From Paludibacteraceae bacterium (GTDB taxonomy: Bacteria > Bacteroidota > Bacteroidia > Bacteroidales > Paludibacteraceae): 64,000 bases of DNA. Position 1 is the first letter of the stretch; every line of letters begins with the position of its first letter. Below are positions 210-53,261 of this stretch, piece by piece. The translations under genes were made by a program, and so were the position numbers. The DNA lies in contig JAFTZQ010000022.1 of the NCBI GenBank assembly GCA_017464475.1, positions 24,288 to 88,287 on the forward strand. Reading direction: 5' to 3'. The notes below the pieces were generated by a model. That model ran no database searches. It worked only from the letters and a program-made list of their open reading frames with translations, and was not told the origin of the DNA.

Positions 210-1502
210 ATGCATTATTTATTTACAAGCGAATCGGTGTCTGAAGGACATCCGGACAAAGTGAGTGACCAGATATCGGACGCGATACTGGACAATATGT
301 TGGCGCAAGACCCGCAGGCTCATGTGGCGTGCGAGACCCTGTGCACGACAGGGCAAGTGGTGATTGCCGGAGAAGTGAGTTGCAAGGGCTGGGTGGACAT
401 TCAGCAGATCGCCCGCAAGACCATTGCCGAGATCGGTTACACCAAAGCGGAATACAAATTCGAGGCGGAGAGCTGCGGTATTCTGACCGCGCTGCATGCC
501 CAGAGCCAAGACATCAACATGGGCGTTTCGCGTGCCGAAGCCGACGAACAAGGAGCCGGTGACCAGGGAATGATGTTCGGTTATGCGACCGACGAAACGG
601 ACAATTACATGCCTCTGACGCTCGACCTGGCGCACACCTTAGTCTATACGCTTGCGCGCATCCGCAAAGAAGGCAAACAGATGCTTTACCTTCGTCCGGA
701 CAGCAAGAGCCAAGTGACTATCGAATACGACGAGCAGAACCGCCCCGTGCGCATCGACACGATCGTGCTGAGCACGCAACACGACGAGGAATTGAGAATT
801 GAGAATGGAGAATTGAGAATTGAAAAAAAGGTTACACCTGAGTTAATCAAGCAAGATGTGATTGATATTCTGTTGCCGCGTGTAGCAACGCGTGACAGCC
901 GTTACGGACACCTGCTGCACGATTTTCTGGAGGACAAGAACGCCAAACTATTGGTGAACCCGACGGGCAATTTCGTCATCGGCGGTCCTCACGGCGACAC
1001 GGGTCTGACCGGGCGCAAGATTATCGTGGATACGTACGGCGGTCGTGGCGCACACGGAGGCGGCGCATTCAGCGGAAAGGATCCGTCCAAAGTGGACCGT
1101 TCGGCAGCTTATGCAGCACGCTGGATCGCCAAACATCTGGTAGCCGCCGGAGTGGCGCACGAAGCGCTCGTTCAGGTCAGTTACGCCATAGGCGTAGCCA
1201 AACCCGTCTCGCTCTATGTCAACACGTACGGCACAGCCCAAGTGCCGATGAGCGACGCAGAGATAGCAGCCAAAGTGAACGAACTGTTCGACCTCCGTCC
1301 GGCAGCCATCATCCGCGACCTCAAACTGACGCAACCGATGTACGAAGAGACCGCCAAATACGGTCACGTCGGACGCACGAACGAAGTGGTCACAAAGACT
1401 TTCTTCGACGCAGACGGCAAAGAATTTACCCGCCAAGTAGAATTATTCACATGGGAGAAACTGAATCGATTAGAAGAAGTAAAAGCCAAGTTTGGCTTGT
1501 AA
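210..1502 (+). CDS. metK: S-adenosylmethionine synthetase
   Basis: The enzyme makes S-adenosylmethionine from methionine and ATP in the cytoplasm. The protein is 430 residues, starts [17 protein letters not shown] and carries the ATP-binding GHPDK motif, [12 protein letters not shown] and the loop [25 protein letters not shown], all typical of MetK. The frame is open upstream to 63, but that stretch covers the promoter and riboswitch, so the ATG at 210 is chosen. Residues about 194-205 ([12 protein letters not shown]) are encoded by a heptad repeat array not expected in MetK; the array falls in a variable loop between conserved segments. The 3' end overlaps lspA by 52 nt, which suggests translational coupling. 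Confidence 0.97.
789..824 (+). repeat. Heptad array (GAATTGA type) inside metK
   Basis: Tandem TGAGAAT heptads with one variant copy lie in frame within metK and are translated as [12 protein letters not shown]. The same heptad family recurs at 3099-3130, 31623-31665, 44890-44927 and 50051-50090. Confidence 0.9.
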
Positions 1503-2005
1503 TAGCGATCGTAGTGCTGTCGCTGGTCATTGATCAGGCGATCAAACTCTATATCGCTACGCATTTTGCACTGGGCGAGAGCCGCGAGATCTTCTCGTGG
1601 TTCTGGCTGTGCTATGTGGAGAACAACGGCATGGCGTTCGGCATCGAATGGTTCAGCAAGTTAGCCCTGACGCTCTTCCGGCTCGTTGCGGTCGGGCTGC
1701 TGGGATGGTACGTACACACGCTGATCTACAAACAGCAGGCGAAAACAGGCTATATAGCAACCATCGCGTTTATCATCGCCGGCGCATTGGGAAACATCAT
1801 CGACTGCGTCTTCTACGGCAAACTCTTCGGCTATGCCGGATGGTTCTACGGACGCGTGGTGGACATGTTCTATTTTCCGCTGATCCATAATAGCGCCGGC
1901 GAAGTGATCTTCTTCCGCCCGGTGTTCAACTTCGCGGACAGTTGTATAACGTGCGCCGTAGCGGTCATTCTGCTCTTTTATCTCAAAGAGCTGAATGGGA
2001 AATAA
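1451..2005 (+). CDS. lspA: Lipoprotein signal peptidase (signal peptidase II)
   Basis: The enzyme is an inner-membrane aspartic protease that cleaves signal peptides of diacylglyceryl-modified prolipoproteins after Lgt acts. The protein has 184 residues and four predicted membrane segments. The catalytic aspartates are in GNIIDC (D118) and FNFADS (D163), and the family motif ENNGMAFG is at about 57-64. It is slightly longer than the usual 160-170 residues. It overlaps the end of metK, and a DUF4296 lipoprotein gene follows, a common arrangement in Bacteroidota. The start is the ATG at 1451; the next in-frame methionine would remove the first membrane segment. Confidence 0.95.
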
Positions 2006-2044
2006 GCCCCACCCAGCCTCCCCTGAAGGGGAGGAGACAGGGGG
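2006..2044 (+). repeat. G/C-rich palindromic element, copy 1 (intergenic)
   Basis: The copy begins at the base after the lspA stop codon. Core CCTCCCCTGAAGGGGAGG is palindromic. On the minus strand it matches the consensus CCCTCCCTTGAGGGGAGGG followed by NTGGGGNGRGG. Confidence 0.8.
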
Positions 2045-2056
2045 AATGATGGATTG

Positions 2057-2563
2057 ATGAGAAATCAACTATACATAGTATTGCTTGTGCTAATGGTCCT
2101 TTTCTCCGGCTGCCGCCCGAAAGGGATTTTGAGTTCGCGGGAGATGCGCCAAGTGCTGGTCGATCTGCATAAGACCGACGGCATGCTGCAGACACGCGGC
2201 GCGCGGACCATGGAGTACGAAGACAGAGACCTGTACTACGCCCAAGTGCTGGCGAAACATCATGTGACGCAAGCGCAGTTTGACTCCTCGCTCGTCTGGT
2301 ACACCGCACACCCGCAGTTTTTCAATAAGATCTATCCGAAAGTGCTCAAAGACCTCGAAGCGGAGGAAGAAGCCTTCAACGAGCTCTACGCCGAAGAGTT
2401 GGCGGGCATGAGCAATAAGAAATCAGAAGTCAGCCCTCAGCATTCAACATTCAGCCGGACGGATCTGGACAGCGTGCTTTGGGTGATGCAGAACGGATAC
2501 GGAAACTCGTGGAGACGATGGGAAAGACCGCTCCCCACTCCTCCTTACAGAAGCGAAAAATAA
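2057..2563 (+). CDS. DUF4296 family lipoprotein
   Basis: This is a 168-residue lipoprotein of unknown function. The signal peptide MRNQLYIVLLVLMVLFSGC ends in the lipobox FSGC. The body ILSSREMRQVLVDLHKTDGML is the characteristic start of DUF4296, a family found in Bacteroidota and often encoded beside lspA, as here. A TTG three bases upstream is also possible, but the ATG at 2057 is preferred. Residues about 122-133 (KSEVSPQHSTFS) are encoded by a short degenerate heptad array, in the variable C-terminal part. The stop codon abuts the stop codon of the convergent holA with no spacer. Confidence 0.85.
   Translation: MRNQLYIVLLVLMVLFSGCRPKGILSSREMRQVLVDLHKTDGMLQTRGARTMEYEDRDLYYAQVLAKHHVTQAQFDSSLVWYTAHPQFFNKIYPKVLKDLEAEEEAFNELYAEELAGMSNKKSEVSPQHSTFSRTDLDSVLWVMQNGYGNSWRRWERPLPTPPYRSEK
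2422..2456 (+). repeat. Heptad array (TCAGCAT type) inside the DUF4296 gene
   Basis: Degenerate heptads of the form ATCAGAAGTCAGCCCTCAGC continue as CATTCAACATTCAGC. They are in frame in the coding sequence and resemble the array at 32389-32424 in queE. Confidence 0.75.
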
Positions 2564-3607
2564 TTAGTGCATGATCTTATAGATCAGCTCTTTCCATAGA
2601 TCGGGATCTTTCGCGGAAGGGTTATTGATACCTTTCAGACGCGCATCGGTCTCGCGCAAATACCCGATTATAAGAAATGTCTTACCCGCCGAATAGCGAC
2701 GAGCAGCCATCTCGTAATCCTTGACGAAATAAGGGTTGATACCCAATTCCTTTGCCACCACAGCCTGGGTCTTATTCGGCAGATAGTGGTACATCAGCAG
2801 GTTAGAAAAGAAGGTGAACAGAGGTGCCATCTCGCGAATCATGGGATGGTCCTTGCTACCGCCGAAATACTGCGCAATACGGTTCGCTTTCGCTACATCG
2901 CCGCGGATAAGCGCCGACTGAAGTTCCATAATATTATAATCCTTCGAGATACCTATATTGCGCTCCACCAAGGCTGCGTCAATCGTGTTCACCCCTTCCG
3001 GACGACCCGCAATCAGTTTATCCAATGCGCCAACGATAGCCGACAAGTCTGTTCCCAGATGGTCCGCCAGCAGCGGAGCGACCTTCGGATCTATTTTTAA
3101 TTGAGAATTGAGAATTGAGAATTGAGAATTATATTCGGCGATATAATTAAGAATCCATTTCTCCACCTCATAGTCGCGCAACTTGTCGGACTGCAGCCAG
3201 ACGACCTGCGGGTGTTCCGCCACTTTCTTCCAGAGGTTCTGCCGCTTGTCCGGCTTGCCGTTGTAGCAGATAACCAATACCGTCTGGGGCATAATGACAT
3301 TCAAATACGCCTCCAAAGCCTCCCATTTCTTGACCGCTTGCGCTTCGCGCACAATGACCACCTTGCGTCCTCCCATCATCGCATATCCGCGCGCGGCAGA
3401 AATCACCGGCGCAATGTCCGCTCCCTGCAGATCACGACCATAGACGGTCTGCTGGTCAAACTCACGCGCCATCTCATCCAAAGCGTGCGTGGCAATGAAA
3501 TCATACACGCGGTCGATATAATACGGCTCCTCGCCGCACAGAATATAAATCGGCGCGTACTTGTCGGCTCTCAAAGCCGCCATTATGTCGGAATATTTGG
3601 AGGTCAT
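2564..3607 (-). CDS. holA: DNA polymerase III delta subunit
   Basis: HolA is the clamp-loader subunit that opens the beta sliding clamp. The 347-residue protein shows the family start YAPIYILCGEEPYYIDRVYDFI, the middle segment VVIVREAQAVKKWEALEAYL and the C-terminal domain with helices such as FFSNLLMYHYL and GINPYFVKDYEMAARRYS. Residues about 159-169 ([10 protein letters not shown]) are encoded by a GAATTGA heptad array inserted between conserved parts. It is the last gene of the minus-strand series that begins with the NUDIX gene. A second kind of heptad array separates it from the upstream nucleotidyltransferase gene. Confidence 0.93.
   Translation of the reverse strand: MTSKYSDIMAALRADKYAPIYILCGEEPYYIDRVYDFIATHALDEMAREFDQQTVYGRDLQGADIAPVISAARGYAMMGGRKVVIVREAQAVKKWEALEAYLNVIMPQTVLVICYNGKPDKRQNLWKKVAEHPQVVWLQSDKLRDYEVEKWILNYIAEYNSQFSILNSQLKIDPKVAPLLADHLGTDLSAIVGALDKLIAGRPEGVNTIDAALVERNIGISKDYNIMELQSALIRGDVAKANRIAQYFGGSKDHPMIREMAPLFTFFSNLLMYHYLPNKTQAVVAKELGINPYFVKDYEMAARRYSAGKTFLIIGYLRETDARLKGINNPSAKDPDLWKELIYKIMH
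3099..3130 (-). repeat. Heptad array (GAATTGA type) inside holA
   Basis: Four and a half copies of TTGAGAA/TTGAGAAT on the plus strand, read in frame on the minus strand as part of HolA. Confidence 0.9.
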
Positions 3608-3608
3608 T

Positions 3609-3645
3609 TCTGATTTCTGATGGCTGATAGCTGATGGCTGATAGC
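3609..3645 (-). repeat. Heptad array (GATGGCT/GATAGCT) between holA and its upstream gene
   Basis: Alternating heptads GATGGCT and GATAGCT occupy nearly the whole spacer between holA and the nucleotidyltransferase gene. Confidence 0.9.
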
Positions 3646-3649
3646 TTAC

Positions 3650-4750
3650 TTACTCCCAGCGTCTGTCGGGCGCAAAGAGCCTTCGTGCGCCATGCAACAA
3701 AGTGGTCCACACCAAATGGCGGGCATAAGCGGGGCTGTATGGCGCTATTCGTTTGGCGTTCGCTATACGGGAACGCATCGTATAAATCTTGCGTGCAAGC
3801 CGCCCTTTCGGTGCTTGGTGTTCGTCCTTAGGCGTGCGCATTCTTCCGGATAACAAATCCTCTGTTATTCGCTCCGCACGCGCGGCTACTGCGTCGGTAT
3901 AGAAAAGCGCTTCTTCTTTCGGAAGCCCTAGATAAGCATGCATCACATAGGCATACAATTGCCATGCATCCATGAGCCGCAGCGAGCGCAGATACTTGCG
4001 CAGACGGGGCACATCAATCCTGTCCTTATAATGATGCAGCAGCAGCGTCAGATCGCATATCTGCCGCACATTCGCTCCGGCAGAGAGCAAGTGCTCCCAC
4101 GAATGAAGGAAGATGAGCAGCGCATTGAAGGTCGGCTCCGGCACACGCACCTCAAATCCATTGAGCAGAAGCGGCTCTGCCTGCTGCATTCCTTCTCGCT
4201 CATAATGCGCATAGAGCCGCTCGTCCCGCGGGTGTTGGAGGCTGACCGTCACGCGGTGCACCTCTATCGACACCCCGTCGGCAATGAGGTTATAGTGCTT
4301 GTAATGGTCCAACTCTTCGTCGAACTTAAGCGCATTAGGAAAAGTCTCCCGCATGACCGCACACGCCGGATGGTATTGCTCGGGCCCCACATAGAGGTCT
4401 ATATCCCCCCACGCGCGGTAATGCGGCTCCGGATAGAGCGCCGCAAGCCCTGCCCCTTTCATCAGCACGGCATGAATACCTGCGTTCTGGAATGCCGTCC
4501 AAGCTTTTTCCAATGTGTATTGGAGCGCCACTTGATTCTGCATCGTCGCCATACAGACACTCTTCATCTGCGCACGCACGGCAGCAGAGAGCGTCTCTTG
4601 GTTCAGAGCCGAAGGAAAGACCAGCGCACCTGTTCCCTGCTGCGCGTGAAGCGCCAAAAGGAGCGGTGTCTGCTCCTCCTGCCAAACAACTTGTTCGCCC
4701 CACAATGCAGCGCGAACGAGTGATAGATATGTAGAAAATTCTCTTCGCAC
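3650..4750 (-). CDS. Nucleotidyltransferase family protein (NTP_transf_5-like)
   Basis: The 366-residue protein has the minimal nucleotidyltransferase signature of the uncharacterised NTP_transf_5 family: AVLMKGAGLAALYPEPHYRAWGDIDLYV, with GDIDLYV as the metal-binding Asp-x-Asp motif, and the later EVHRVTV and LLIFLHSWEHLLSAG segments. Members often sit with surface polysaccharide genes, but here the neighbours are era and holA, so the substrate is unknown. The start is a GTG six bases after the era stop codon, which indicates an operon. The C-terminal 60 residues are basic. Confidence 0.8.
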   Translation of the reverse strand: MRREFSTYLSLVRAALWGEQVVWQEEQTPLLLALHAQQGTGALVFPSALNQETLSAAVRAQMKSVCMATMQNQVALQYTLEKAWTAFQNAGIHAVLMKGAGLAALYPEPHYRAWGDIDLYVGPEQYHPACAVMRETFPNALKFDEELDHYKHYNLIADGVSIEVHRVTVSLQHPRDERLYAHYEREGMQQAEPLLLNGFEVRVPEPTFNALLIFLHSWEHLLSAGANVRQICDLTLLLHHYKDRIDVPRLRKYLRSLRLMDAWQLYAYVMHAYLGLPKEEALFYTDAVAARAERITEDLLSGRMRTPKDEHQAPKGRLARKIYTMRSRIANAKRIAPYSPAYARHLVWTTLLHGARRLFAPDRRWE

Positions 4751-4756
4751 AGCAGA

Positions 4757-5695
4757 TTAAGTCAAATCATATCCGTAATGACGCAAGCGCCCTGTGTTGG
4801 AACGCCAGTCGCGATCCACCTTCACAAAGAGCTGCAAGAACACTTGTTTCTGGAAGAAATCCTCGATATCCTTGCGAGCCTGCGACCCGACGCGTTTGAG
4901 GGCTGCCCCGGCTTTGCCGATGATGATACCCTTCTGGCTCTCGCGCTCACAATAGATCACCGCGGAGATGCGGATGAGGTGCTCTTCCTCTTGGAATGAC
5001 TCCACCTCTACCTCCACCGAATAAGGGATTTCTTTGTCGTAATTGAGCAGCACTTTCTCGCGGATGATCTCGTTCACAAAGAATCGCTCGGACTTGTCGG
5101 TCAGCTGATCTTTCGGGAAGAAAGGAGGTCCGACCGGAAGTGCCTCCTTGATCGCATCGAAGAGCTGCGCTACGCCGAAACGCTCTTGCGCCGAGATGGG
5201 AAAAATCTCCGCTTCGGGCAACTGGCTATGCCAGAACGCGACAAGCGACTCAAGGGTCTCTTGGGTCGTCAGGTCAATCTTGTTAATAACGAGGAAAACT
5301 CTCGTCCCCGCAGCCGCCATCCGCTTCACTTTCTCCAGAAAGTCGGGATTACGGTCGATGGTGTCCTGCGGCTCGGTCACATAGAGCAACACATCTGCGT
5401 CCACCAGCGCCGAACGGCTGAACTCCAGCATTTTCTCTTGCAGCCTGTAGTTAGGCGAAAGGACGCCCGGAGTGTCGGAATAGACCATTTGGAAATCCTC
5501 GCCGTTGACGATCCCCATAATACGGTGGCGGGTGGTTTGCGCCTTCGATGTGATGATCGACAGACGCTCCCCCACCAGCGCGTTCATTAACGTAGATTTG
5601 CCAACATTGGGGTTACCAACAATGTTCACAAACCCACTACGGTGGGCCTGTGAACATTGCTGATTGCTGATTGCTGATTGCTGTTTGCTCATCAT
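4757..5695 (-). CDS. era: GTPase Era, 16S rRNA processing and 30S assembly
   Basis: Era binds the 3' end of 16S rRNA during 30S maturation. The G1 motif GNPNVGKS is at residues 27-34, the G3 motif DTPG follows, the G4 motif is NKID, and a C-terminal KH domain includes ERESQKGIIIGKAGAALKRVG. The protein has 312 residues. The first about 14 residues (MMSKQQSAISNQQC) come from a heptad array and precede the usual Era start AHRSGFVNIVG, so the repeat has created or extended the N terminus. The start ATG overlaps the stop codon of the upstream M16 protease gene (TAATG), which suggests coupling. The second ATG at 5692 is also possible. Confidence 0.95.
   Translation of the reverse strand: MMSKQQSAISNQQCSQAHRSGFVNIVGNPNVGKSTLMNALVGERLSIITSKAQTTRHRIMGIVNGEDFQMVYSDTPGVLSPNYRLQEKMLEFSRSALVDADVLLYVTEPQDTIDRNPDFLEKVKRMAAAGTRVFLVINKIDLTTQETLESLVAFWHSQLPEAEIFPISAQERFGVAQLFDAIKEALPVGPPFFPKDQLTDKSERFFVNEIIREKVLLNYDKEIPYSVEVEVESFQEEEHLIRISAVIYCERESQKGIIIGKAGAALKRVGSQARKDIEDFFQKQVFLQLFVKVDRDWRSNTGRLRHYGYDLT
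5657..5689 (-). repeat. Heptad array (GCTGATT) forming the 5' end of era
   Basis: Four GCTGATT-type heptads on the plus strand, translated on the minus strand as repeats of QQSAISN at the N terminus of Era. Confidence 0.9.
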
Positions 5696-8604: not shown

Positions 8605-8628
8605 TGTTGTTAATTATTTAGTTTTGTT

Positions 8629-8671
8629 CTAGTTTATCTAGTTTAACTAGTTGTACTAGTTTATCTAGTTT
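8629..8671 (-). repeat. Nonamer array (CTAGTTTAT) downstream of tdh
   Basis: Tandem nine-base units CTAGTTTAT, CTAGTTTAA, CTAGTTGTA and CTAGTTTAT fill the spacer between tdh and the M16 gene. The same family occurs between kbl and tdh. Confidence 0.9.
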
Positions 8672-21407: not shown

Positions 21408-21437
21408 CTGAACGAGCAAACAAACATTTTTCGCTTG

Positions 21438-21468
21438 CAAAATTACAACAATTTTTGCACATGTCAAA
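21438..21468 (-). promoter_or_regulatory. Promoter of the sensor kinase-AraC operon
   Basis: TAATTTTG (21438-21445) with a TTTG about 19 nt upstream on the minus strand. It overlaps the divergent promoter of the permease gene, so the two may be co-regulated. Confidence 0.75.
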
Positions 21469-21485
21469 ATTATTTTGTACCTTTG
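21454..21485 (+). promoter_or_regulatory. Promoter of the ArsG/CcdA-like gene
   Basis: TTTG (21454-21457) and TACCTTTG (21478-21485) are spaced by 20 nt on the plus strand, interleaved with the divergent promoter. Confidence 0.85.
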
Positions 21486-21512
21486 CACGCTTTTTTAGCA
21501 AAAATACACATT

Positions 21513-22279: not shown

Positions 22280-23049
22280 TGAACTTGGGATTTCAGTTCA
22301 AGCAATTCTTCGTCCGGCACGACCGTTGTGCAATGAAAGTGGGCACCGACGGGGTGTTGTTGGGCTGCTGGAATGGCTATGATGCAGCCGCTGCCGGGTC
22401 GCCTACAATACCACATCGTTACCACTACGCAAGGTGCCTTGACATTGGCACCGGTTCCGGCTTAATCGCGCTCATGCTCGCCCAGCGTTTTCCCGACGCG
22501 CTTATTGACGCTATCGACATAGACAAAGCCGCCGTAGAGCAAGCCGCAGAGAATTTCGCCGCCTCACCTTGGTCCGACCGCCTGCATGCCTTCCATGCCC
22601 ACCTGCAAGAGTGGCAAAGCCATTCAGCCTACTCCCTCATCGTCTCCAACCCGCCTTATTTCCAAAACAGTCTAAAAAATCCGGACAAAGGGCGGCAGAC
22701 CGCACGCCATACGGACACATTGAGTTTCAGCGAGTTAATCCATCATAGCACACGCCTCTTATCCGAAAATGGTATTCTGGCACTTATCCTGCCTACCGAA
22801 GCCGAATCGGAAGTGTGCGAATTAGCGCAGGCAGAAGGGCTGTCTCTCACGCGCATAACACGCGTATATAGTAAGGAGTCCAAACCCGCGCGGAGAGTTC
22901 TATTAGCCTTCGGGAAATCGAAATCTCGAAATACCGATATATCGACATCTCGAAATACCGCTCCCGTTGAAGACACCCTCGTCCTTGAAGACGAAATAGG
23001 CGGCCGTTCAGCCGCCTATCGGGAATTAACAAAGGACTTCTACCTATAG
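22279..23049 (+). CDS. trmN6: tRNA1(Val) adenine(37)-N6-methyltransferase
   Basis: The enzyme methylates A37 of tRNA-Val (YfiC/TrmN6 family). The 256-residue protein shows the family signature FQFKQFFVRHDRCAMKVGTDGVLLGCW, the SAM motif LDIGTGSGLIALMLAQR and the amino-methylase motif NPPYF. Residues about 213-228 (GKSKSRNTDISTSRNT) are encoded by an in-frame repeat array near the C terminus. The last codons overlap a hairpin (23031-23061) and the final residues ELTKDFYL form a normal end for the family. Confidence 0.9.
   Translation: MNLGFQFKQFFVRHDRCAMKVGTDGVLLGCWNGYDAAAAGSPTIPHRYHYARCLDIGTGSGLIALMLAQRFPDALIDAIDIDKAAVEQAAENFAASPWSDRLHAFHAHLQEWQSHSAYSLIVSNPPYFQNSLKNPDKGRQTARHTDTLSFSELIHHSTRLLSENGILALILPTEAESEVCELAQAEGLSLTRITRVYSKESKPARRVLLAFGKSKSRNTDISTSRNTAPVEDTLVLEDEIGGRSAAYRELTKDFYL
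22914..22960 (+). repeat. Octad-like array (CGAAATACC/CGAAATCT) inside trmN6
   Basis: Units of GAAATC, TCGAAATACC, GATATATCGACATCTCGAAATACC repeat in frame. Related sequences (GATATATCG) recur in the arrays at 49629-49681 and 53268-53316. Confidence 0.75.
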
Positions 23050-30977: not shown

Positions 30978-31631
30978 ATGAAGGATACCCTTATCGTCCT
31001 TTCCGGTGGACTGGACTCCACCACAATGCTTTATGAGTACCGCTTTCGCATCGGCATGGCGGTCTCGTTTCACTATGGCAGCAACCATAATGACCGCGAG
31101 TTAGAGTTTGCCAAACTCCATTGCGAGCGGCTCGGAATACCCCATCTGGTCATCCGCCTGCCGTTTATCAAGCAGTTCTTTAAATCCTCGCTGCTCGAAG
31201 GAGCCGAAGCGATACCCGAAGGCAACTACGACGAAGAGAATATGAAATCAACCGTCGTACCTTTTCGCAATGGTATTATGCTCTCCATTGCCGCAGGCAT
31301 TGCGGAGAACAACAAGATGCAATATGTGATGCTGGCGAATCATGCCGGAGACCACACGATCTATCCTGACTGTCGCCCTGAGTTCGTGGACGCAATGAAC
31401 AAAGCTATCCATTTCGGCACATGGAATGGGGTCCAACTCCTCACGCCTTATACCAATCTCACCAAAGCGGAGATAGCCTCCAAAGGCAAAGAACTGAATA
31501 TCGACTACTCCGAGACTTGGAGCTGTTACAAGGGCGGCGAGCACCACTGCGGCGTCTGCGGTACCTGCCGCGAGCGCAAAGAAGCCCTCGCGCAAGCCGG
31601 CATTGAAGATAACACCATTTATGATAATTGA
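30978..31631 (+). CDS. queC: 7-cyano-7-deazaguanine synthase
   Basis: QueC converts 7-carboxy-7-deazaguanine to preQ0 with ATP and ammonia. The 217-residue protein has the PP-loop SGGLDS at 9-14 and the C-terminal zinc cysteines in SCYKGGEHHCGVCGTC. The stop TGA is the first codon of the heptad array that follows, so the array touches the coding end. Confidence 0.95.
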   Translation: MKDTLIVLSGGLDSTTMLYEYRFRIGMAVSFHYGSNHNDRELEFAKLHCERLGIPHLVIRLPFIKQFFKSSLLEGAEAIPEGNYDEENMKSTVVPFRNGIMLSIAAGIAENNKMQYVMLANHAGDHTIYPDCRPEFVDAMNKAIHFGTWNGVQLLTPYTNLTKAEIASKGKELNIDYSETWSCYKGGEHHCGVCGTCRERKEALAQAGIEDNTIYDN

Positions 31632-31665
31632 GAATTGAGAATTGATAATTGATAATTGAGAATTA
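31623..31665 (+). repeat. Heptad array (GATAATT/GAGAATT) between queC and queD
   Basis: Six heptads (TGATAAT, TGAGAAT type). The first contains the queC stop codon and the last ends directly at the queD ATG (31665). Confidence 0.92.
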
Positions 31666-31997
31666 TGTACTACGTAGAAAAAAGAGTAGAGATCTCGGCG
31701 GCGCATAATCTGACGCTGTCATACGAAAGCAAATGCGAGAACCTGCATGGCCATAACTGGATTATTGTGGTCTATTGCAAAGCCAAGGAACTGAACAAAG
31801 ACGGGATGGTGACTGACTTCACCCACATCAAAAAAGTTGTGAAGGACACCTTTGACCATAAATATATCAACGAAATACTGGACGTTAATCCGTCGGCGGA
31901 GAACATCGCCCGCTGGATTTGCGACCATGTAGAGAATTGCTACAAAGTCTCCGTCCAAGAGTCCGAAGGCAACACCGCTATTTATGAGAGAGACTAG
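31665..31997 (+). CDS. queD: 6-carboxytetrahydropterin synthase
   Basis: QueD makes 6-carboxy-5,6,7,8-tetrahydropterin from dihydroneopterin triphosphate. The 110-residue protein has zinc histidines H14 (SAAHNL), H28 and H30 in CENLHGHNW, with catalytic C24. The start MYYVEKRVEI is chosen over a TTG three codons upstream, which lies in the repeat. The stop TAG is supplied by the CTAGG-type array. Confidence 0.95.
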   Translation: MYYVEKRVEISAAHNLTLSYESKCENLHGHNWIIVVYCKAKELNKDGMVTDFTHIKKVVKDTFDHKYINEILDVNPSAENIARWICDHVENCYKVSVQESEGNTAIYERD

Positions 31998-32030
31998 GAT
32001 CCTAGGAAACTAGGGCCCTAGGATACTAGT
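31993..32030 (+). repeat. Array (ACTAGGNNC) between queD and queE
   Basis: Units ACTAGGATC, CTAGGAAACTAGGGCC, CTAGGATACTAGT. It includes the TAG stop of queD and ends two bases before the queE start. Confidence 0.85.
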
Positions 32031-32031
32031 A

Positions 32032-32685
32032 ATGTACCGAGTTAACGAAATATTCTTTACCTTGCAGGGCGAGGGCGCGCACAGCGGTATTCCCGCTGTG
32101 TTTGTTCGCTTTAGCGGCTGCAATCTGCGCTGCCCTTGGTGCGACACCGACTTTGCCGAGTTTACCGAAATGAGTGCATCGGAGATCGTAGCGGAGATGT
32201 GCGCGCTGTACGACGCTCCTAATGAGCGGCGTAAGATGTGCGTCCTCACCGGAGGCGAACCGAGCCTGCAGGTGGACAAACCGCTCATTGACGCGCTACA
32301 CGAAGCGGGGTTCTATATCTGCATCGAGACCAACGGCACACGCCCGCTGCCCGAGGGGATCGACTGGATCACTTGTTCTCCCAAAGAGTTCAGCCTTCAG
32401 CATTCGGCAATAAGCCATCAGCCGCCTTTGGCGCTCAAGAGAGTGAACGAAGTAAAAGTGGTCTTCACCGGCACGTACGACCCGGAGATTTGGCGCACAC
32501 ATATAGAAGCAGAGCATTGGATGCTCCAGCCCCTGCGCTACAACGGCGATCTGCTCATGGAGAGCGGGATCGACGAATGGTCGGAGGACAACAACGATAA
32601 CTTGGACGAAACGGTCCGCTATATCCTCGCCCACCCTTTCTGGCGACTCAGCGTCCAACTCCATAAGATTATCGGTCTTCGATAA
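32032..32685 (+). CDS. queE: 7-carboxy-7-deazaguanine synthase
   Basis: QueE is a radical SAM enzyme that converts 6-carboxytetrahydropterin to 7-carboxy-7-deazaguanine. The 217-residue protein has the cluster-binding cysteines C30, C34 and C37 in CNLRCPWCDTDF and the family start FFTLQGEG. Residues about 120-131 (FSLQHSAISHQP) are encoded by an in-frame repeat array. It is the last gene of the queuosine cluster and ends before a terminator. Confidence 0.95.
   Translation: MYRVNEIFFTLQGEGAHSGIPAVFVRFSGCNLRCPWCDTDFAEFTEMSASEIVAEMCALYDAPNERRKMCVLTGGEPSLQVDKPLIDALHEAGFYICIETNGTRPLPEGIDWITCSPKEFSLQHSAISHQPPLALKRVNEVKVVFTGTYDPEIWRTHIEAEHWMLQPLRYNGDLLMESGIDEWSEDNNDNLDETVRYILAHPFWRLSVQLHKIIGLR
32389..32424 (+). 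repeat. Heptad array (TTCAGCC/ATTCGGC type) inside queE
   Basis: Units TTCAGCC, TTCAGCA, TTCGGCA, TAAGCCA, TCAGCCG in frame in queE. It is related to the array at 2422-2456. Confidence 0.8.
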
Positions 32686-35625: not shown

Positions 35626-35667
35626 TCAAATATCAAATATCAAATGTCAAATGTCAAATATCAAATG
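35626..35667 (-). repeat. Heptad array (TCAAATA/TCAAATG) between pdxJ and exbB
   Basis: Six heptads TCAAATA, TCAAATA, TCAAATG, TCAAATG, TCAAATA, TCAAATG fill the spacer. The array ends three bases before the pdxJ stop codon. Confidence 0.95.
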
Positions 35668-36383: not shown

Positions 36384-36405
36384 AGCGAAAAATCTAAATT
36401 TGCCG

Positions 36406-36437
36406 CAAAGATACAACAAAAATTGCATATACGCAAA
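36406..36437 (-). promoter_or_regulatory. Promoter of the pdxJ-exbB-exbD-tonB series
   Basis: TTTG (36434-36437) and TATCTTTG (36406-36413) are spaced by 20 nt on the minus strand, with the extended GCGTATATGC. Confidence 0.85.
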
Positions 36438-36461
36438 TTTTTTTAGAAAAATATACTTATA

Positions 36462-39476: not shown

Positions 39477-39492
39477 GTTTTTTATCAAAAAA

Positions 39493-39524
39493 TTTGCATA
39501 TTCCAAATATTTTTTGTACCTTTG
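39493..39524 (+). promoter_or_regulatory. Promoter upstream of the unknown gene at 39648
   Basis: TTTG (39493-39496) and TACCTTTG (39517-39524) are spaced by 20 nt on the plus strand. Confidence 0.8.
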
Positions 39525-39647
39525 CACCCGAAATGAAGTCCAAATCGACCCCAAATAAGCCCCGCATCGGGGTACTTTCGTGGTAGTCCTAGACTTTGTT
39601 AATTGATACTACGACACACAAGACTGAATATCAGTACATTACGCGCC

Positions 39648-43734: not shown

Positions 43735-44899
43735 ACCTGAACTTATGGGCGAAACCGACGGAGAGCAGTTCGCGGAACTGGATCTTGGCGTGCGTGTCGC
43801 CTTCCATAATGACCGATGTGTCGTAGCGCGGGTGCAGCATAAGCCGTGCAGACATGAAGCGGTTGATGATAAAATCACAGTTGATCTCCAAGTCCAACTC
43901 TACATGGCGGTAGTTGGTGTACATGTAGAATTTAGACTCCAACGCCACCTCTCGCACCGGCTTCCATGTATATTCCACGCGGACGGACGAACCGATATTA
44001 TGCTGGGTTCGCTGTCCAGCTTCCAAACCATACTCCGTAGCTTTCACCCGCGCCGTGTCCATGACGTGGATCACTTTGTATGAGACCGGCGAGACGGAGA
44101 TAGAGAGCCCTTTCACGGGCTTGTAGTCAATACCGAACGCGGCATTGAAGCGGAAGGGCGAGAAAGGACCCGATTTCAGCTCCATCGAGTTGGATTTATA
44201 GGTCGGCAGGAGGCGCGTCTCGAGTTCGACAGAGAGAGAAGTAAAGAGTTTGGGCACGATCCGGAGGTTCGCTTTCGAATAGAGCCGCAGCAGATCGTCG
44301 GTCGTGTTGACCTTATGCAGACTGTCGGCAGAGATCGTCGATCCGCCGATGCGCCATTCGCCCGTGTTCTCCCATGTAAAACGCTCGGTAATATAACTGA
44401 TCTGCCCTTTGGCGATGCCGAGTCCGGCAAAAGAGGACGAACCGCCCTGATACCAGTTAGAAGTAACGTAGTTCTGGGTGACCTGGAGCATGAGCGTCGC
44501 TTCGCGCCGCCAAGGCGACCGCAAGTCGCGGATAGCGCGCAGCACGTCGTTGCGGTCCTCCACCTCATCCTTGATCCATGATTTCTCTATCACAATCTCC
44601 GGCGCTTTGGGGATCTTTTGCAACTCCAGCGCGGCATTGACCGTCTTGAGCGAATCGACTTCCGCTATCTCGCGTTGGATTGAATCCAGCCGCATGATCT
44701 CCGCGAGGGTCAGGGTGTCCACGGTGTCCGAGGCATGAATCTGTTCGCTCTGGCGGGAGACCATGTCCAGCAAGAGCGCATCCATGTCGGCTGTGCTCTG
44801 CTGGTCGGACAGTTTGAAGGTGTCCGTATATAATTGTTGCGCCGTCATACTCATGGCGGCGCAAATCAATCCTAATATAATTGATACTCTAATTCTCAA
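43733..44899 (-). CDS. DUF3078 family protein, second copy
   Basis: The 388-residue secreted protein has signal MRIRVSIILGLICAAMSMTAQ. The family pattern is clearest from residue 130 onward: WRREATLMLQVTQNYVTSNWYQGGSSSFAGLGIAKG, then RFTWENTGEWRIGG and the barrel-like C terminus SVGFAHKFR. Its start codon is TTG at 44899 in the heptad array; a shorter start would remove the signal peptide. Function unknown, outer-membrane location likely. Confidence 0.8.
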   Translation of the reverse strand: MRIRVSIILGLICAAMSMTAQQLYTDTFKLSDQQSTADMDALLLDMVSRQSEQIHASDTVDTLTLAEIMRLDSIQREIAEVDSLKTVNAALELQKIPKAPEIVIEKSWIKDEVEDRNDVLRAIRDLRSPWRREATLMLQVTQNYVTSNWYQGGSSSFAGLGIAKGQISYITERFTWENTGEWRIGGSTISADSLHKVNTTDDLLRLYSKANLRIVPKLFTSLSVELETRLLPTYKSNSMELKSGPFSPFRFNAAFGIDYKPVKGLSISVSPVSYKVIHVMDTARVKATEYGLEAGQRTQHNIGSSVRVEYTWKPVREVALESKFYMYTNYRHVELDLEINCDFIINRFMSARLMLHPRYDTSVIMEGDTHAKIQFRELLSVGFAHKFR

Positions 44900-44927
44900 T
44901 TTTCAATTCTCAATTATCAATTATCAG
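44890..44927 (-). repeat. Heptad array (GAATTGA/GATAATT) between secA and the DUF3078 gene
   Basis: Units TTCTCAAT, TTTCAATTCTCAATTATCAATTATCAG. Read on the minus strand it supplies the TTG start of the DUF3078 gene and abuts the secA stop codon. Confidence 0.92.
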
Positions 44928-47900: not shown

Positions 47901-48265
47901 GCAAAACGGCGTGCTGCCGATTTGACGATAGCGTACGCTTCCGGCAGAATCTCATTCATCACGCGCTCGTACTCGTCCTTGATCTCCTTCTCCAGACGGT
48001 CCACTTCATTGTAGATCTTCTCGCGTTTCTCGATCGGCGTGCCTTCGATAGAAGCTTTGAGTTCGGCGATGCGGTTCTTGCGGTCCGCTACTGCGGCTTG
48101 CAACTTGTCCATCAGGGCGTACGAGTGCGCACGGAGTTCGTCATGCGAGAGCGCGTCAATCTTCTCGTACTGCTCCTTGATCTTGTCCACTATCGGCTGA
48201 ATGGCGCGCATATCTTTCTGCGCCTTGTTACCGAATAGTTTGGTGATAATTTCTAAAAAATTCAT
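44924..48265 (-). CDS. secA: Preprotein translocase ATPase SecA
   Basis: SecA drives protein export through SecYEG. The 1113-residue protein has the Walker A MATGEGKT with surrounding [31 protein letters not shown], motif [23 protein letters not shown] and helical scaffold regions, and a C-terminal zinc motif [20 protein letters not shown]. The length is longer than in most bacteria (about 900 residues), as is common in Bacteroidota because of insertions. Confidence 0.97.
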
Positions 48266-48288
48266 ATATCGTTTCGTTATTTACATAA

Positions 48289-48330
48289 AATGCGGCTAAT
48301 TAGCCGTTTTTCTCGTGCTTAACAGCACTC
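48289..48330 (-). other. Two hairpins in the secA leader
   Basis: Leader of about 75 nt with CGGCTAATTAGCCG (48291-48304) and GTGCT/AGCAC (near 48315-48329). They may influence secA expression; this is inferred. Confidence 0.5.
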
Positions 48331-48344
48331 GATAAAAAACCGTG

Positions 48345-48376
48345 CAAAGGTACAACTTTTTTTCGATATATGCAAG
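48345..48376 (-). promoter_or_regulatory. Promoter of secA
   Basis: CTTG (48373-48376) and TACCTTTG (48345-48352) are spaced by 20 nt on the minus strand, with the extended CATATATCG and an A-tract. Confidence 0.85.
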
Positions 48377-48418
48377 TACAAAATGCATGCCGTGCGATTT
48401 TTACTGCCAAAATGGCAT

Positions 48419-48457
48419 AGAAAAAGCGCCCCGAGGGGTTTTCGGGACGCTTTTCTG
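48419..48457 (-). terminator. Terminator of the DUF5692-like gene
   Basis: AAAAAGCG..CCCGA and the matching GGG..CGCTTTT form a stem around GGGGTTTTC, followed by a T-run on the minus strand. Confidence 0.8.
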
Positions 48458-48496
48458 AGATTTCTACATTCAGCTATGAGCCTTCGACGTTTTGCC

Positions 48497-49591: not shown

Positions 49592-49628
49592 AGATTAGAA
49601 TTTTTTAAGATTAAATGATTGATTATTA

Positions 49629-49681
49629 TCGGTATATCGACCTTTCGGTATATCGAGTTTTCAACTTTCAACTTTCAACTC
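49629..49681 (-). repeat. Composite array (GGTATATCGA and TTCAACT)
   Basis: Two units GGTATATCGA followed by heptads TTTCAACT, TTCAACT, TTCAACT. The second type contains the TGA stop of the gene at 49661. Confidence 0.85.
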
Positions 49682-49948
49682 TTTCCGCTCCTTGGCATAG
49701 CACCAGATCGCCCAGACCGCCGTGACGACCACGGACATTGGCACGCCGATCGTCAGCACTTCGCGTAAGTTCCATGCGAAAAGTTCGCCGTTGACCAGAT
49801 GGTCAATGAGCAGCATGATAGATCCGCCCCAGAGCATCAGTTCCAGAGTCTTTAGGTTACGTCCGACAAACGTGTCGGTCTGTTTCGTTACTTTGCGGTA
49901 AATAGTTGTCGCTACCGCCTGCGTTAATGGTACAATAAAACAAGCCAT
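49661..49948 (-). CDS. Small membrane protein of unknown function
   Basis: The 95-residue protein has two membrane helices (LMLWGGSIMLLIDHLV and VLTIGVPMSVVVTAVWAIWCY) and a basic C terminus. The last residues (KELKVES) are encoded by the heptad array, which supplies the stop codon. No family is recognised. Confidence 0.65.
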   Translation of the reverse strand: MACFIVPLTQAVATTIYRKVTKQTDTFVGRNLKTLELMLWGGSIMLLIDHLVNGELFAWNLREVLTIGVPMSVVVTAVWAIWCYAKERKELKVES

Positions 49949-50050
49949 ATTATTATAAAATTTCCAAAATGTTCAATTTTGTTTTATCGGGGTTTTGTCG
50001 TGGTTGTTTCGGGGTTTTTCCCTTCTTCCAATGTTCCATTTTTCCCCCTT

Positions 50051-50090
50051 CAATTCTCAACTCTCAATTCTCAACTCTCAATTCTCAATT
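50051..50090 (-). repeat. Heptad array (CTCAATT/CTCAACT) at the end of hypA
   Basis: Units CAATTCT, CAACTCT, CAATTCT, CAACTCT, CAATTCT. On the minus strand it encodes the last residues of HypA (ELRIES) and its stop codon. Confidence 0.92.
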
Positions 50091-50418
50091 CCTTTATCTC
50101 CACCTCGTTGCCGCGAAGGAGCCATGTCTTCTCGCTCCCGCAATGAGGGCAGATCTTGCCGTGCGCCACAGTGGGATAGTCCTTTCCGCACCCGTCGCAA
50201 TGGGTCACAGCAGGTATGGGTTCGATCCTCAACTCGCAGCCCCGCAGCAAGTCCTCTTTATCCGCCGCCCACCGCCAGCAGTCAGTCAGGTACTCCGGAA
50301 TGATCGTACTCACCTCGCCTATGTTCATCACAACAGTCGAGACGTGCTCCACCCCATTCTCCTCCGCCGCTTTCTTCACGTCACGGATGATATAGAAAAC
50401 GATCCCCAGTTCGTGCAT
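50071..50418 (-). CDS. hypA: Hydrogenase/urease nickel incorporation protein HypA
   Basis: HypA delivers nickel together with HypB during maturation of [NiFe] hydrogenase or related enzymes. The 115-residue protein begins with the nickel-binding MHE and has the zinc cysteines CDGCGKDY and CPHCGS. The last 6 residues come from the heptad array. Its start overlaps the stop codon of the oxidoreductase gene. Confidence 0.9.
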   Translation of the reverse strand: MHELGIVFYIIRDVKKAAEENGVEHVSTVVMNIGEVSTIIPEYLTDCWRWAADKEDLLRGCELRIEPIPAVTHCDGCGKDYPTVAHGKICPHCGSEKTWLLRGNEVEIKELRIES

Positions 50419-53261
50419 TATTTTTTCGGGCTTAGTCCGGAAATAAGGATCTTTCCGCCTCTCTTGATCATGTAGGGCAGGATGCCGTCGAACTTGTTCT
50501 CCGAGGTGCGCATGACGCTGGCTTCAGGATGTTCACGGTGCAGATGGATCGCGTCGAAGCCACACTTGGTAGTACAAATACCGCAACCGATACAGCGGTT
50601 TTCATCGACCACCGACGCGCCGCAACTGAGACAGCGGGCAGTCTCTATCTTCACCTGCTCTTCGGTCAGCGTACCGTGGTATTCAGCGAATTGGCTCTTC
50701 GTCGGAATAACGCCCGGCTCCTGGCGGCTGCTGTTGTCGTACTGCTCTACGCGGATGTCACTCTTGTCCAGTTCAATGAAATCGCGACGGTTGCGACCGA
50801 TGGTCATGTGACCGTGCTGCACGAAGCGGTGCAGACTCTCGGCGGCCTCTTTACCTGCCGCGATAGCGTCGATAGCGAACTTCGGACCGGTGAACACATC
50901 GCCACCCACGAAAATATCCTCTTCAGCGGTCTGGTACGTCAGTTTGTCGGCTACCGGGTACACACCGCGAACGAACTCCACCTTGGTGTCCTTCAGCAGG
51001 TCTTTCAATACCACCGTCTGACCGATCGCAAAGATCACGAGATCAGCCTCCAGCGTAAGAGTCTCGTTCTCGTCGAACTTCGGCGCAAACTTATGCTGCT
51101 CGTCGAATACAGACACGCACTTCTTGAAGGTGATTCCTTTCACCTTTCCACTTTCACCTTTCACTTCCATCGGTCCCCATCCCGGGTTGATGATCACGCC
51201 GTCCTCACGCGCCTCCATGCGCTCTTCGAGCGAAGCAGGCATGATATCTTCGGTCTCCAGCGACAGCATGGTCACTTCTGCCGCGCCGCTGCGTTTGGCT
51301 ACACGCGCAGCATCGATAGCGACGTTTCCGCCGCCGACTACCACCACTTTGCCGCTGATCTTCTTGCCTCCGCAATTCGCCTCGTGCAGGAAATCAATCG
51401 CCGTCGTTGTGCCCTCCAAATCCTGTCCCGGGATACCAGGCAGACGACCGCCTTGGCAACCGATCGCGACATAGAAACCCTTGTAACCCTCTTTGCGCAG
51501 GTCTGCGATGGTAACATCCTTTCCGACCTCTACGCCACAACGGATCTCCACGCCGATCTCACGCATGATATCGATCTCGGCTTTGATGACCTCTTTGTCC
51601 AGTTTGTAGGACGGAATACCATACCGCAGCATACCGCCCGGCTCTTCGTTCTTCTCAAAGACCGTGGGCTTGTAACCCATCGTCGCCAGATAATAAGCAC
51701 AACTCAGTCCGGCAGGACCGCCGCCAATGATAGCGATTTTCTCTTCCCAGCGCTCTTGCACATTGGAGCATATATTGACCTCCGGAATGAATCGTGTCTC
51801 GGCATGCAGGTCGCGGTCGGCAATGAATTTCTTCACAGCGTCGATAGCGATCGCGCGGTCTATCGTGCCGCGGGTACAAGCGTCCTCGCAACGGCGGTTG
51901 CAGACCCTTCCGCAGACTGCCGGGAACGGATTCTCGCGTTTGATCAACTCCAACGCCTCGGTGTATTTGCCTTCCGCAGCTTTCTTGAGGTAACCCTGCA
52001 CAGCGATATGTGCCGGACAAGCGGTCTTGCAGGGCGCCGTTCCGGTCGGATAACAATTGACACGGTTGTCGTCGCGGTAGTTCTCGTTCCATTTCTCCGG
52101 TCCCCATTTGGTCGCGTCCGGCAATTCCTGCTTCGGATAAGTCTGCGGTCCGTGCGCAGTGCATAGTTTCTGACCCAACTTGACAGCACCCGCAGGGCAG
52201 TACTCCACGCACCGTCCGCAGGCAACACATTTCTTCGGATCGACCTCCGCCACGTACGCGCTACGCGACATATTAGGTGTATTGAACAGCTGCGACGTAC
52301 GGAGCGCGTTGCATATCTTGACGTTGCAGTTGCAAATCGCGAAGATCTTTCCCTCTCCGTCGATATTGGTCACTTGGTGCACAAAACCGTGATCTTCGGC
52401 TTTCTTGAGGATCGCCATTGCCTCGTCGTATGTGATGTCGTGTCCTCGTCCGGTCTCGCGCAGGTAGTCCGCCATGTCGCCCACACCGATACACCAGTCG
52501 CGGTAGTCGTCTGCACAGCCCTCATCCAGTTTCTTGCGGCCGTAGCGGCAGGAACAGATTCCGACACCGATATGCCCCTCGTATTTCTTGAGCCAGTAAC
52601 TGATATGCTCTATATCGACCGACTGGTTCTCCATCGAGATCGCTTTCTCCACCGGAATGACGTGCATACCGATTCCGCTGCCGCCCATCGGTACCATCGG
52701 CGTGATCTTCTCCAGCGGCAGGAACGTCATGCGCTCGAAGAACATCGCCAACTCGGGGTGACGGTCCATCAGCTCGGTGTTCATATTGGTATATTCGGCG
52801 CTTCCTGGCACAAACATCGGCACCCAGTAGATCCTGTCCTCGCGGTTGAAAGTAGTGCCAGCATCCGGTCCCTGACCGTTGGTGTAATGGTCGCCGTAAT
52901 CGTACTCCAGCATGCCGAAATACGCCAATTTGTCCAGCAACTCGTCGAAACTCTTGTCGTCCGGCGTGTAGTGTTTCTTGGCGTTCATCTCGTGCAACTG
53001 CGCGTACGTGTGGTGCTTGCGTACCTTAAAGAAATTACCGGGCAGCATGTCCAGCAACAGATCCAGCGACGCCTCACGCGTCACCGCATCCATCTCGTCC
53101 TCAAAGATACAGGCGAGGCCCCAATACTCCGGGGCGTCGGTAGTCATCTTGATCTTTCCGGGAATCCGGTCCGTCACGTGGCGGACGAACTTCAACAACT
53201 TCGGATTCGGATTCTTGTCCCCTTTGTGCTTCGGGACAAACTTCTTTGACATTTCAGGCAT
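50418..53261 (-). CDS. FAD/NAD(P)-binding oxidoreductase, glutamate-synthase small-subunit-like, with ferredoxin domains
   Basis: The 947-residue protein has an N-terminal region (about 1-350) of unknown type with cysteine-rich segments GICSCRYGRKKL and ICNCNVKICN. A 4Fe-4S ferredoxin segment follows (ACGRCVEYCPAGAVK, about 345-360), then the GltD-like part with CGRVCNRRCEDACTRG, the FAD motif IIGGGPAGLSCAYYLATMGY, and the NADPH motif VVVGGGNVAIDAARVAKRSG. The C terminus has a second ferredoxin-type cluster CIGCGICTTKCGFDAIHL. It resembles NADPH-dependent glutamate synthase/NfnB-type electron carriers. Residues about 698-708 come from an in-frame array. The location between hypA and hypB suggests a role in hydrogenase-linked redox chemistry. 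Confidence 0.8.
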   Translation of the reverse strand: MPEMSKKFVPKHKGDKNPNPKLLKFVRHVTDRIPGKIKMTTDAPEYWGLACIFEDEMDAVTREASLDLLLDMLPGNFFKVRKHHTYAQLHEMNAKKHYTPDDKSFDELLDKLAYFGMLEYDYGDHYTNGQGPDAGTTFNREDRIYWVPMFVPGSAEYTNMNTELMDRHPELAMFFERMTFLPLEKITPMVPMGGSGIGMHVIPVEKAISMENQSVDIEHISYWLKKYEGHIGVGICSCRYGRKKLDEGCADDYRDWCIGVGDMADYLRETGRGHDITYDEAMAILKKAEDHGFVHQVTNIDGEGKIFAICNCNVKICNALRTSQLFNTPNMSRSAYVAEVDPKKCVACGRCVEYCPAGAVKLGQKLCTAHGPQTYPKQELPDATKWGPEKWNENYRDDNRVNCYPTGTAPCKTACPAHIAVQGYLKKAAEGKYTEALELIKRENPFPAVCGRVCNRRCEDACTRGTIDRAIAIDAVKKFIADRDLHAETRFIPEVNICSNVQERWEEKIAIIGGGPAGLSCAYYLATMGYKPTVFEKNEEPGGMLRYGIPSYKLDKEVIKAEIDIMREIGVEIRCGVEVGKDVTIADLRKEGYKGFYVAIGCQGGRLPGIPGQDLEGTTTAIDFLHEANCGGKKISGKVVVVGGGNVAIDAARVAKRSGAAEVTMLSLETEDIMPASLEERMEAREDGVIINPGWGPMEVKGESGKVKGITFKKCVSVFDEQHKFAPKFDENETLTLEADLVIFAIGQTVVLKDLLKDTKVEFVRGVYPVADKLTYQTAEEDIFVGGDVFTGPKFAIDAIAAGKEAAESLHRFVQHGHMTIGRNRRDFIELDKSDIRVEQYDNSSRQEPGVIPTKSQFAEYHGTLTEEQVKIETARCLSCGASVVDENRCIGCGICTTKCGFDAIHLHREHPEASVMRTSENKFDGILPYMIKRGGKILISGLSPKK
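51136..51167 (-). repeat. Heptad array (CACTTTC/CACCTTT) inside the oxidoreductase gene
   Basis: Units CTTTCACCTTTCCACTTTCACCTTTCACTTCC, in frame. On the minus strand they give EVKGESGKVKG. Confidence 0.8.

Follow-up and report, generated by a model that had tools for sequence, protein, structure and literature searches.

Cyanobacterial short tandemly repeated repetitive (STRR) sequences consist of tandem heptanucleotides. An initial annotation likened to them a set of short arrays in a 64,000-nt stretch of Paludibacteraceae DNA (assembly GCA_017464475.1, contig JAFTZQ010000022.1, positions 24,288 to 88,287 of the forward strand; hereafter the window), where repeats with a unit of about seven nucleotides lie in frame inside seven conserved protein genes, among them metK, holA, era and queE. 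The likeness is one of form, as tandem heptads: the arrays stand beside STRR by description and not by unit sequence. The phenomenon exceeds these seven sites, as 528 kb of the source genome holds 67 arrays of period 7, of which 53 do not lie wholly within called genes. Heptad repeats of this kind are probably edited by slippage, copied around genomes and tolerated where reading frame, orientation and protein loop allow.

Among described systems, PMC4692102 mentions tandem heptads in Calothrix and characterizes those of Xanthomonas and Nostoc (GGGAATC and GGGGA(C/T)T), which are dispersed through the genome, mostly between genes with a minority inside them. There, related species keep the same gene neighbours with large variation in length and sequence; the unit is G-rich and quadruplex-capable, and a preference for four units is linked to quadruplexes. 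The Paludibacteraceae arrays resemble these in their dispersal, in lying mostly outside genes in the source genome, in recurring beside the same genes in related species with varying length and sequence, and in a four-unit-like size preference. They differ in that AATTGAG has no G-tracts yet clusters at four to five units, in their many unit families and in the differing inserts that a given protein loop carries. TAACTGA repeats, reported from Beggiatoaceae, Cyanobacteria and five Bacteroidetes and proposed as a translational regulator (PMC4679880), typically placed in forward orientation just ahead of start codons, offer a second comparison: both are TGA-bearing heptads lying mostly between genes, some overlapping stop codons and few being intragenic in the stop-free orientation. 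Unlike the single fixed TAACTGA unit, the unit families here vary from species to species, with some lying in essential-enzyme loops; TAACTGA was not among the 25 unit classes of the 67 arrays in 528 kb of the source genome.

Two further systems are close in one respect each. Geobacter metallireducens has 49 copies of four tandem heptads, between and within genes, a family that is GC-rich, fixed and a predicted regulatory RNA; no replacement between species is mentioned in the available passages of PMC2700814. The palindromic elements of Rickettsia, as outlined in the MITE review PMC10969869, insert in frame into metabolic genes as ~150 bp encoding a conserved peptide. In-frame insertion into conserved genes (metK, queE) is shared with them, whereas the present arrays are mostly tandem repeats of 30-40 nt, those of metK and holA being direct repeats of 32-35 nt. 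Hairpin-like inserts found at the metK, holA and queE loops look closer to the Rickettsia elements, by appearance only.

The literature searched, which covered few subscription papers, gave nothing in titles or abstract openings on these arrays in Paludibacteraceae or on in-frame heptads in MetK, HolA, QueE or TrmN6, no report of differing repeats alternating at one essential-enzyme loop across sister species and none of a size preference in heptads without G-tracts. As far as that search reaches, the arrays belong with known heptameric repeats, and the alternating loop inserts and the size preference without G-tracts are new. One MetK or QueE loop with differing peptides in sister species amounts to natural, replicated insertion experiments in essential enzymes, revealing the places at which foreign sequence is tolerated in conserved proteins and the way short peptides come to be part of them. 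Simple polymerase slippage does not by itself account for bursts of a single unit, for a preferred size of about four to five units in heptads lacking G-tracts or for rapid change, and the arrays bear on why heptads are favoured in many bacterial genomes.

Heptad arrays inside conserved genes

The source genome (G000) is a 1.9-Mb assembly of 36 contigs, 71% complete. The six nearest named relatives of its MetK are from Bacteroidia, Bacteroidales or Paludibacteraceae, with two red deer and one pig given in isolate names, and a sister genome (G075) is 94.9-96.8% identical to it over the four largest aligned blocks. Arrays were detected with Tandem Repeats Finder (TRF) at score 30, with shuffled windows as controls.

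All seven sites do lie in open genes of the families first named. Profile matches gave methionine adenosyltransferase (metK), DNA polymerase III delta (holA), Era, a TrmN-like methyltransferase, a QueE-like enzyme and a GltD-like oxidoreductase, the scores for TrmN, QueE and the oxidoreductase falling under the curated cut-offs of their best models; the seventh gene codes for a DUF4296 protein. The whole window contains nine period-7 arrays and 20 shuffled versions average 0.0, an excess of tandem 7-nt repeats over chance. At the best period between 6 and 11 for each site, the metK, holA, era, DUF4296 and trmN6 arrays beat every one of 10 shuffled windows, and the queE and oxidoreductase arrays reached a score level expected 0.1 times per window and period in 10 shuffles. 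Chance arising from base composition is ruled out as the source by these shuffles. Array positions were correct to within a few bases (metK 789-823, holA 3099-3130, era 5656-5689). The idea that every site has its own repeat sequence was not upheld, as metK and holA share AATTGAG/AATTCTC, and DUF4296 and queE share TCAGCC-type units. Unit lengths had been put at 7 to 10; six of the seven sites have a unit of 7 and trmN6 one of 8, with none of 9 or 10. The degenerate DUF4296 and queE arrays are absent from the TRF list at score 30.

The clearest insertions are in metK and queE. The metK array (789..823, forward strand) comprises five copies of GAATTGA on the sense strand, in the loop after STQHDE, and this loop measures 42 nt in the source genome versus 3 nt in the sister genome. 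We compared 40 same-genus metK genes, from 96 genomes with a match (the 37 best-scoring plus G074, G001 and G007, with the source genome included): 17 of them have only 3 nt after STQHD (D-E-G-V or D-P-G), and in the other 23 this stretch spans 18 to 66 nt. More distant genes of the genus, nine of which were read, have a short loop, and at the array position the best-matching solved MetK structure is gapped by 9 residues. The loop is variable anyway, because it is long in other families of the order too, without heptads. A script flagged tandem repeats in five of the filled loops, with the units AATTGAG (G000), GGTGAAT and GGTGAAC (G003, G006), GTCAAAA (G053) and a GTACAAT-like one (G086); by eye, six more inserts are GACAAAG- or GTACAA-like, four are hairpin-like, and those of G001 and G007 (21 nt) resemble plain sequence.

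Loop length is divisible by three in 39 of the 40 genes, and codon 807-809, where the metK array would read an in-frame TGA, is GGA, the array stopping before the next TGA; array lengths that restore the frame, as initially proposed, are thus what metK displays. In the remaining gene, that of G074 (locus L324), loop length does not divide by three, and the coding sequence is split into two frames at the repeat loop. Relatives of G074 have in-frame copies, and the break may be an assembly error. As a general account of the arrays, an artefact of assembly or binning is highly improbable: the genus genomes are multi-contig drafts, two contigs of G018 terminate 5 nt or less from an array and the G074 gene is out of frame, but arrays sit inside contigs, with orthologous flanks on both sides, across many separate assemblies, and the metK frame is otherwise kept.

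In queE, degenerate TCAGCC heptads (32389..32424, forward strand) form an insert after CSPKE. Among the 30 best of 80 genomes having a queE match, 15 have this loop empty and the other 15 bear inserts of at least seven kinds: heptads (TCAGCC, ACAAATC, AAAGTCG or GGCGAAG), a 10-mer, a 16- or 17-mer, a CCCC..GGGG hairpin-like sequence and another palindrome (six of the 15 flagged as tandem by script, the remainder classed by eye). The insert of G075 and G033 is of the same kind as that of the source genome; 12 genomes have others. Outside the loop, a single other residue varies in length across the 30 genes, and two solved QueE structures have gaps of 10 (4njg) and 3 (6nhl) residues at the insert.

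At the other named sites the evidence for insertion is graded, with loop lengths in holA and trmN6 counted manually on alignments. The holA array (3099..3130, reverse strand; sense (AATTCTC)4) occupies a loop of 11 residues in the source genome and of 7-14 across nine relatives: 7-9 in G002, G003, G004 and G006, 10-13 without heptads in G008, G007 and G001, and 12 and 14 in G015 and G018, which have other repeats there (AACAGCC heptads in G015). The sister genome has a hairpin-like repeat at this place. No empty state was seen among the nine relatives aligned; the repeat is replaced instead. The trmN6 octad array (22917..22957, forward strand), of ATCGAAAT-like units, lies in a loop 4-7 residues longer than in five relatives, which by eye hold other 7- or 8-mer or CTCGACGAC-like sequence. 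The era array (5656..5689, reverse strand; sense (CAGCAAT)n) encodes an N-terminal extension, SKQQSAISNQQ, that is missing in G015 and present in G018, the sole two relatives read in the alignment, and also in G075. The DUF4296 array (2422..2456, forward strand; degenerate TCAGCNN heptads, period 7, score 14) lies in a variable linker whose length differs among relatives, so an insertion is not provable from the alignment.

Insertion was rejected for the oxidoreductase heptads (51136..51167, reverse strand; sense GGTGAAA), whose segment is equally long in three relatives; this is the one site where the refutation set out in the initial annotation came true. The proposal that the arrays add residues therefore holds for metK and queE, with their empty sites, for the longer trmN6 loop and for the era extension, and fails for the oxidoreductase; tolerated in-frame insertion is borne out by the empty sites of metK and queE, with no empty site seen in holA or DUF4296.

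Hairpin-like CCCC...GGGG repeats were seen by eye, in other species, in the protein loops that bear heptads in the source genome (metK of G018, holA of G018 and G075, queE of G034 and G102), as well as at about 2003-2047 of the window.

Gene boundaries, orientation and turnover

Outside these loops, most arrays sit at or between gene ends. Of the 67 period-7 arrays of the source genome, 14 are wholly inside genes, 30 lie across a gene end and 23 are intergenic, although 86.5% of the DNA is coding (binomial 1e-33 for the intragenic count); in 17 genomes (1,504 kb) 62 of 175 are wholly inside called genes. These counts, and those on orientation below, rest on a simple, purpose-made gene caller, with which false genes are possible. 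Eight genus genomes with at least 58 kb sampled, the source genome included, carry 8 to 27.5 period-7 arrays per 100 kb, and period 7 is the commonest in seven of them and tied with 8 and 11 in the other (G002). Across 80 loci of named records (1,404 kb) such arrays number 49 (3.5 per 100 kb), of which 11 come from the six nearest named relatives. A 201-base query around the metK array returned 47 matches in the source genome, self and overlapping ones counted. The initial annotation missed that most arrays of the source genome are outside genes, that some species carry dispersed families and that inserts in one loop differ between sister species.

Within the window, further heptad arrays include TCAAATA at 35626..35666 (intergenic), AATTCTC at 44891..44926 (a gene end), TTTCAAC at 49659..49680 and TCAATTC/TCAACTC at 50050..50091. 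A CTGATGG/CTGATAG array (3606..3642, reverse strand) lies between holA and the next gene and keeps its unit in the sister genome, the lengths in the pair being 40 and 37 nt.

Many junction arrays of the source genome touch stop and start codons, as the que genes illustrate. An AATTGAG array (31626..31664, forward strand) runs from within the stop codon of queC to the start of queD; the sister genome has an octad CAACTAGT array there instead. CTAG-anchored octads (31993..32029, forward strand) begin at the queD stop TAG, before queE, and are identical in the sister genome. Over the 30 species, tandem repeats were flagged at queC/queD in 15 and at queD/queE in 13, with many different units. By eye, units often start with the last codon and stop of the upstream gene, and periods differ by species. 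The source and sister genomes have one spacer in common at these junctions; in G002, G034 and G108 there is only the stop codon.

Orientation follows the stop codon. AATTGAG contains TGA, and a sense array therefore hits a stop in every frame within 21 nt. The antisense strand is the G-rich one in 13 of the 14 intragenic arrays of the source genome, all but that of metK, and across the 17 genomes the antisense consensus unit contains a stop in 42 of 62 intragenic heptad arrays. Among 52 heptad arrays that overlap the 3' end of a gene, 50 carry a sense-unit stop, partly by definition. Beyond the stop codon the sense unit has a stop in 29 of 44 arrays and the antisense unit in 23 of 44, without clear bias, so that orientation bias is confined to arrays overlapping the stop. 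Selection on frame and stop would be expected to produce this pattern, and because no clear bias extends past the stop codon, a filter on stops fits better than a directional function; our confidence in this selection filter is high. For arrays lying past the stop, a directional role in regulation is unsupported, given the lack of clear bias. Replication strand was dropped as a cause because AATTGAG matches flip orientation within several contigs and orientation tracks overlap with the stop codon.

Comparison with the sister genome revealed rapid turnover. The stretches compared hold 19 period-7 arrays of the source genome, 18 of them anchored. Ten of the 18 keep their unit: five are exactly 7 nt shorter in the sister genome, three are equal and two differ otherwise, so copy number shifts by one whole unit in five of 18. 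At another four sites (C13:150527, 151396, 151442 and C28:25343) the array is rebuilt from units that are related or match in part, and the last four arrays are lost or swapped for unrelated sequence (metK, holA, queC/queD and C13:152598, where the sister genome has an octad GATTTGAT array). One array of the sister genome is missing from the source genome. Among arrays of 9- and 11-nt units, three in the window have the same length in both genomes and one 11-nt array on C28 differs by one unit.

This turnover bears on whether the arrays serve a purpose, as regulators or three-frame stops at junctions or, in proteins, as useful linkers or phase-variable switches. Such functional elements would agree with the sense-unit stops at gene ends, with the translational regulation that MacGregor (PMC4679880) proposed for TAACTGA repeats, with the one metK loop out of frame (G074) and with some arrays being kept over long divergence. 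We consider them very unlikely as the main explanation, since there is no clear orientation bias past the stop codon, arrays are replaced at 95-97% identity, one loop takes differing inserts and the named host genes are housekeeping genes.

Bursts, preferred size and the origin of arrays

In some species one unit has spread widely. We scanned 101 genomes of the genus and 393 of the order for three consecutive heptads, counting overlapping hits. AATTGAG x3 occurs in 14 of the 101 (70, 52, 50, 33, 27, 18, 15, 7, 5, 5, 4, 3, 2 and 1 hits, the source genome having 33), versus four with 1-2 hits for its reversed control. Of the 393 genomes of the order, 19 contain it, and other families show bursts of 35, 15, 13 and 13 hits. 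Bursting is not limited to AATTGAG, because the reversed control itself bursts in other Bacteroidales (117, 31, 25 and 18 hits, among G467, G244, G201 and G200). ACAAATC was rejected as a burst heptad, as it has 1-5 hits in 27 of 101 genomes and its reversed control up to 13 in 15 of 101. The AATTGAG class makes up 21 of 76 heptad arrays in the source genome. Its two-unit 11-mer, AATTGAGAATT, occurs 82 times in 528 kb of the source genome and not at all in 658 kb of six non-burst relatives; chance seeds for that reason fail to explain the burst.

Taken together, we infer that slippage acts as editor, that a copying process spreads units and that the arrays lack a function, with high confidence in slippage editing and moderate confidence in copying. 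A repeat of ~30-40 nt would arise at a site, usually as four to five heptad copies and less often as an octad, a 9-11-mer or a hairpin-like sequence, and its copy number would then shift one unit at a time, as under replication slippage. In some species one heptad, such as AATTGAG in the source genome, would reach dozens of sites by copying; our guess is template switching or ectopic conversion between arrays. Arrays would persist mainly between genes and, inside them, in length-tolerant loops or termini, in a stop-free orientation or phase and with a net length divisible by three. Few loops tolerate arrays, and therefore separate events would strike the same loop in different species.

Birth at each site without any copying, by slippage between pre-existing short direct repeats, chiefly at stop codons, is possible but on balance doubtful; the likeness among arrays would then come from composition and selection. 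The que junction units starting with an upstream last codon and stop, with periods that differ between species (by eye), are consistent with it, as are the unit-step length changes relative to the sister genome and the AATT found at both array ends, which suits a slippage seed. It accounts poorly for the share of AATTGAG among the arrays of the source genome with its two-unit seed absent from non-burst relatives, for bursts in 14 of 101 genomes and for a length peak near 32 nt.

Several observations weigh against slippage, copying and tolerance as a full account. Array size is the first: of 34 AATTGAG arrays in the source genome, 16 fall at 32-36 nt and a single one under 23 nt, and the lengths of other heptad arrays also peak, with 53 of 153 at 30-34 nt. 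Plain slippage predicts a falling length curve, so a size peak near 32 nt is not explained by slippage alone. Array ends are another, with 51 of 85 AATTGAG arrays from six genomes starting and 44 ending in AATT where 12 are expected, in a non-independent set that was picked outside the source genome by three exact units and includes shared sites and neighbours; a slippage seed flanked by AATT would explain these ends, not size or dispersal. Most loop inserts have no script-detected tandem repeat (flagged in 5/23 for metK and 6/15 for queE), the sense consensus unit carries a stop in 11 of the 62 intragenic heptad arrays of the 17 genomes, and eight of 15 relatives showed no period-7 array in the first 12-20 kb sampled. 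Repeats in metagenome-assembled genomes can also be misassembled.

At least five AATTGAG sites, two of them intragenic, are moreover common to species whose flanks are 79-86% identical: one in an AsmA-like protein (G000, G018, G110), one in an M49 peptidase (G018, G053) and three at gene ends (G000, G018). In the shared arrays that were aligned (two intragenic, one gene-end), at most one base differs in the common part. Around the M49 peptidase array (L276 and L287), ~84 bp are near-identical by eye between G018 and G053 versus 81% over 1.6 kb, perhaps a short conversion or transfer tract. Judged from sequence, shared AATTGAG arrays may be old, transferred, converted or re-inserted.

Size and ends raise the alternative of a discrete mobile cassette, a heptad unit of ~32 nt with species-set sequence that an enzyme system writes or inserts at junctions and loops. 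We regard this as rather unlikely, and our confidence in a dedicated writing system is low. A length mode near 32 nt, preferred AATT ends, bursts in genus and order, and 32-nt units that recur in G110 with 5 nt of spacer between them all point towards it. So does an excess of substitutions within 60 bp of changed arrays (65/831 versus 133/3328 further out, Fisher 1.5e-5; 0.002 for bases 20-60 bp out alone), with 53/1193 versus 161/4606 around unit-keeping arrays (Fisher 0.12), but these counts are non-independent, with alignment noise or relaxed constraint contributing in part. Arrays of other lengths are numerous, and octads, 10-mers and hairpin-like inserts occupy the same sites; no enzyme, target duplication or template turned up, and none was searched for. 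In its widest form the idea seems quite unlikely: an active system would write or copy ~32-nt heptad cassettes (four units plus a partial one) into Bacteroidales junctions and tolerant loops, each burst with its own sequence, and the four-unit heptads of Xanthomonas, Nostoc and Geobacter would be the same kind of product and not the result of quadruplex selection.

Other repeats

The G110 structure is a higher-order repeat of 32-nt (AATTGAG)4AATT units separated by the 5-nt spacer CAGTC, at L266:973-1068 and 1419-1510. A separate dispersed element has a conserved core of ~80 bp (AAAGCGTCC...GTACGG...AAGCCCTTTG) with TTGTNNA-like heptads, inverted, on both sides. Seven copies were aligned (L069:13468-13612, L053:9112-9255, L054:14085-14238, two in L063 and one each in L060 and L072), and the element also occurs at the queD/queE junction of G086. 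An Rfam search of the TTGTAAA-flanked element gave two matches far under gathering scores, which we took as chance. At about 21436-21499, 36405-36442, 39479-39534, 48335-48384 and 54059-54105 of the window, stretches of ~40-60 bp have many dispersed matches in the six relatives searched and are perhaps promoter-like leaders. A 51-bp tandem repeat of 2.4 copies lies at 58019-58138.

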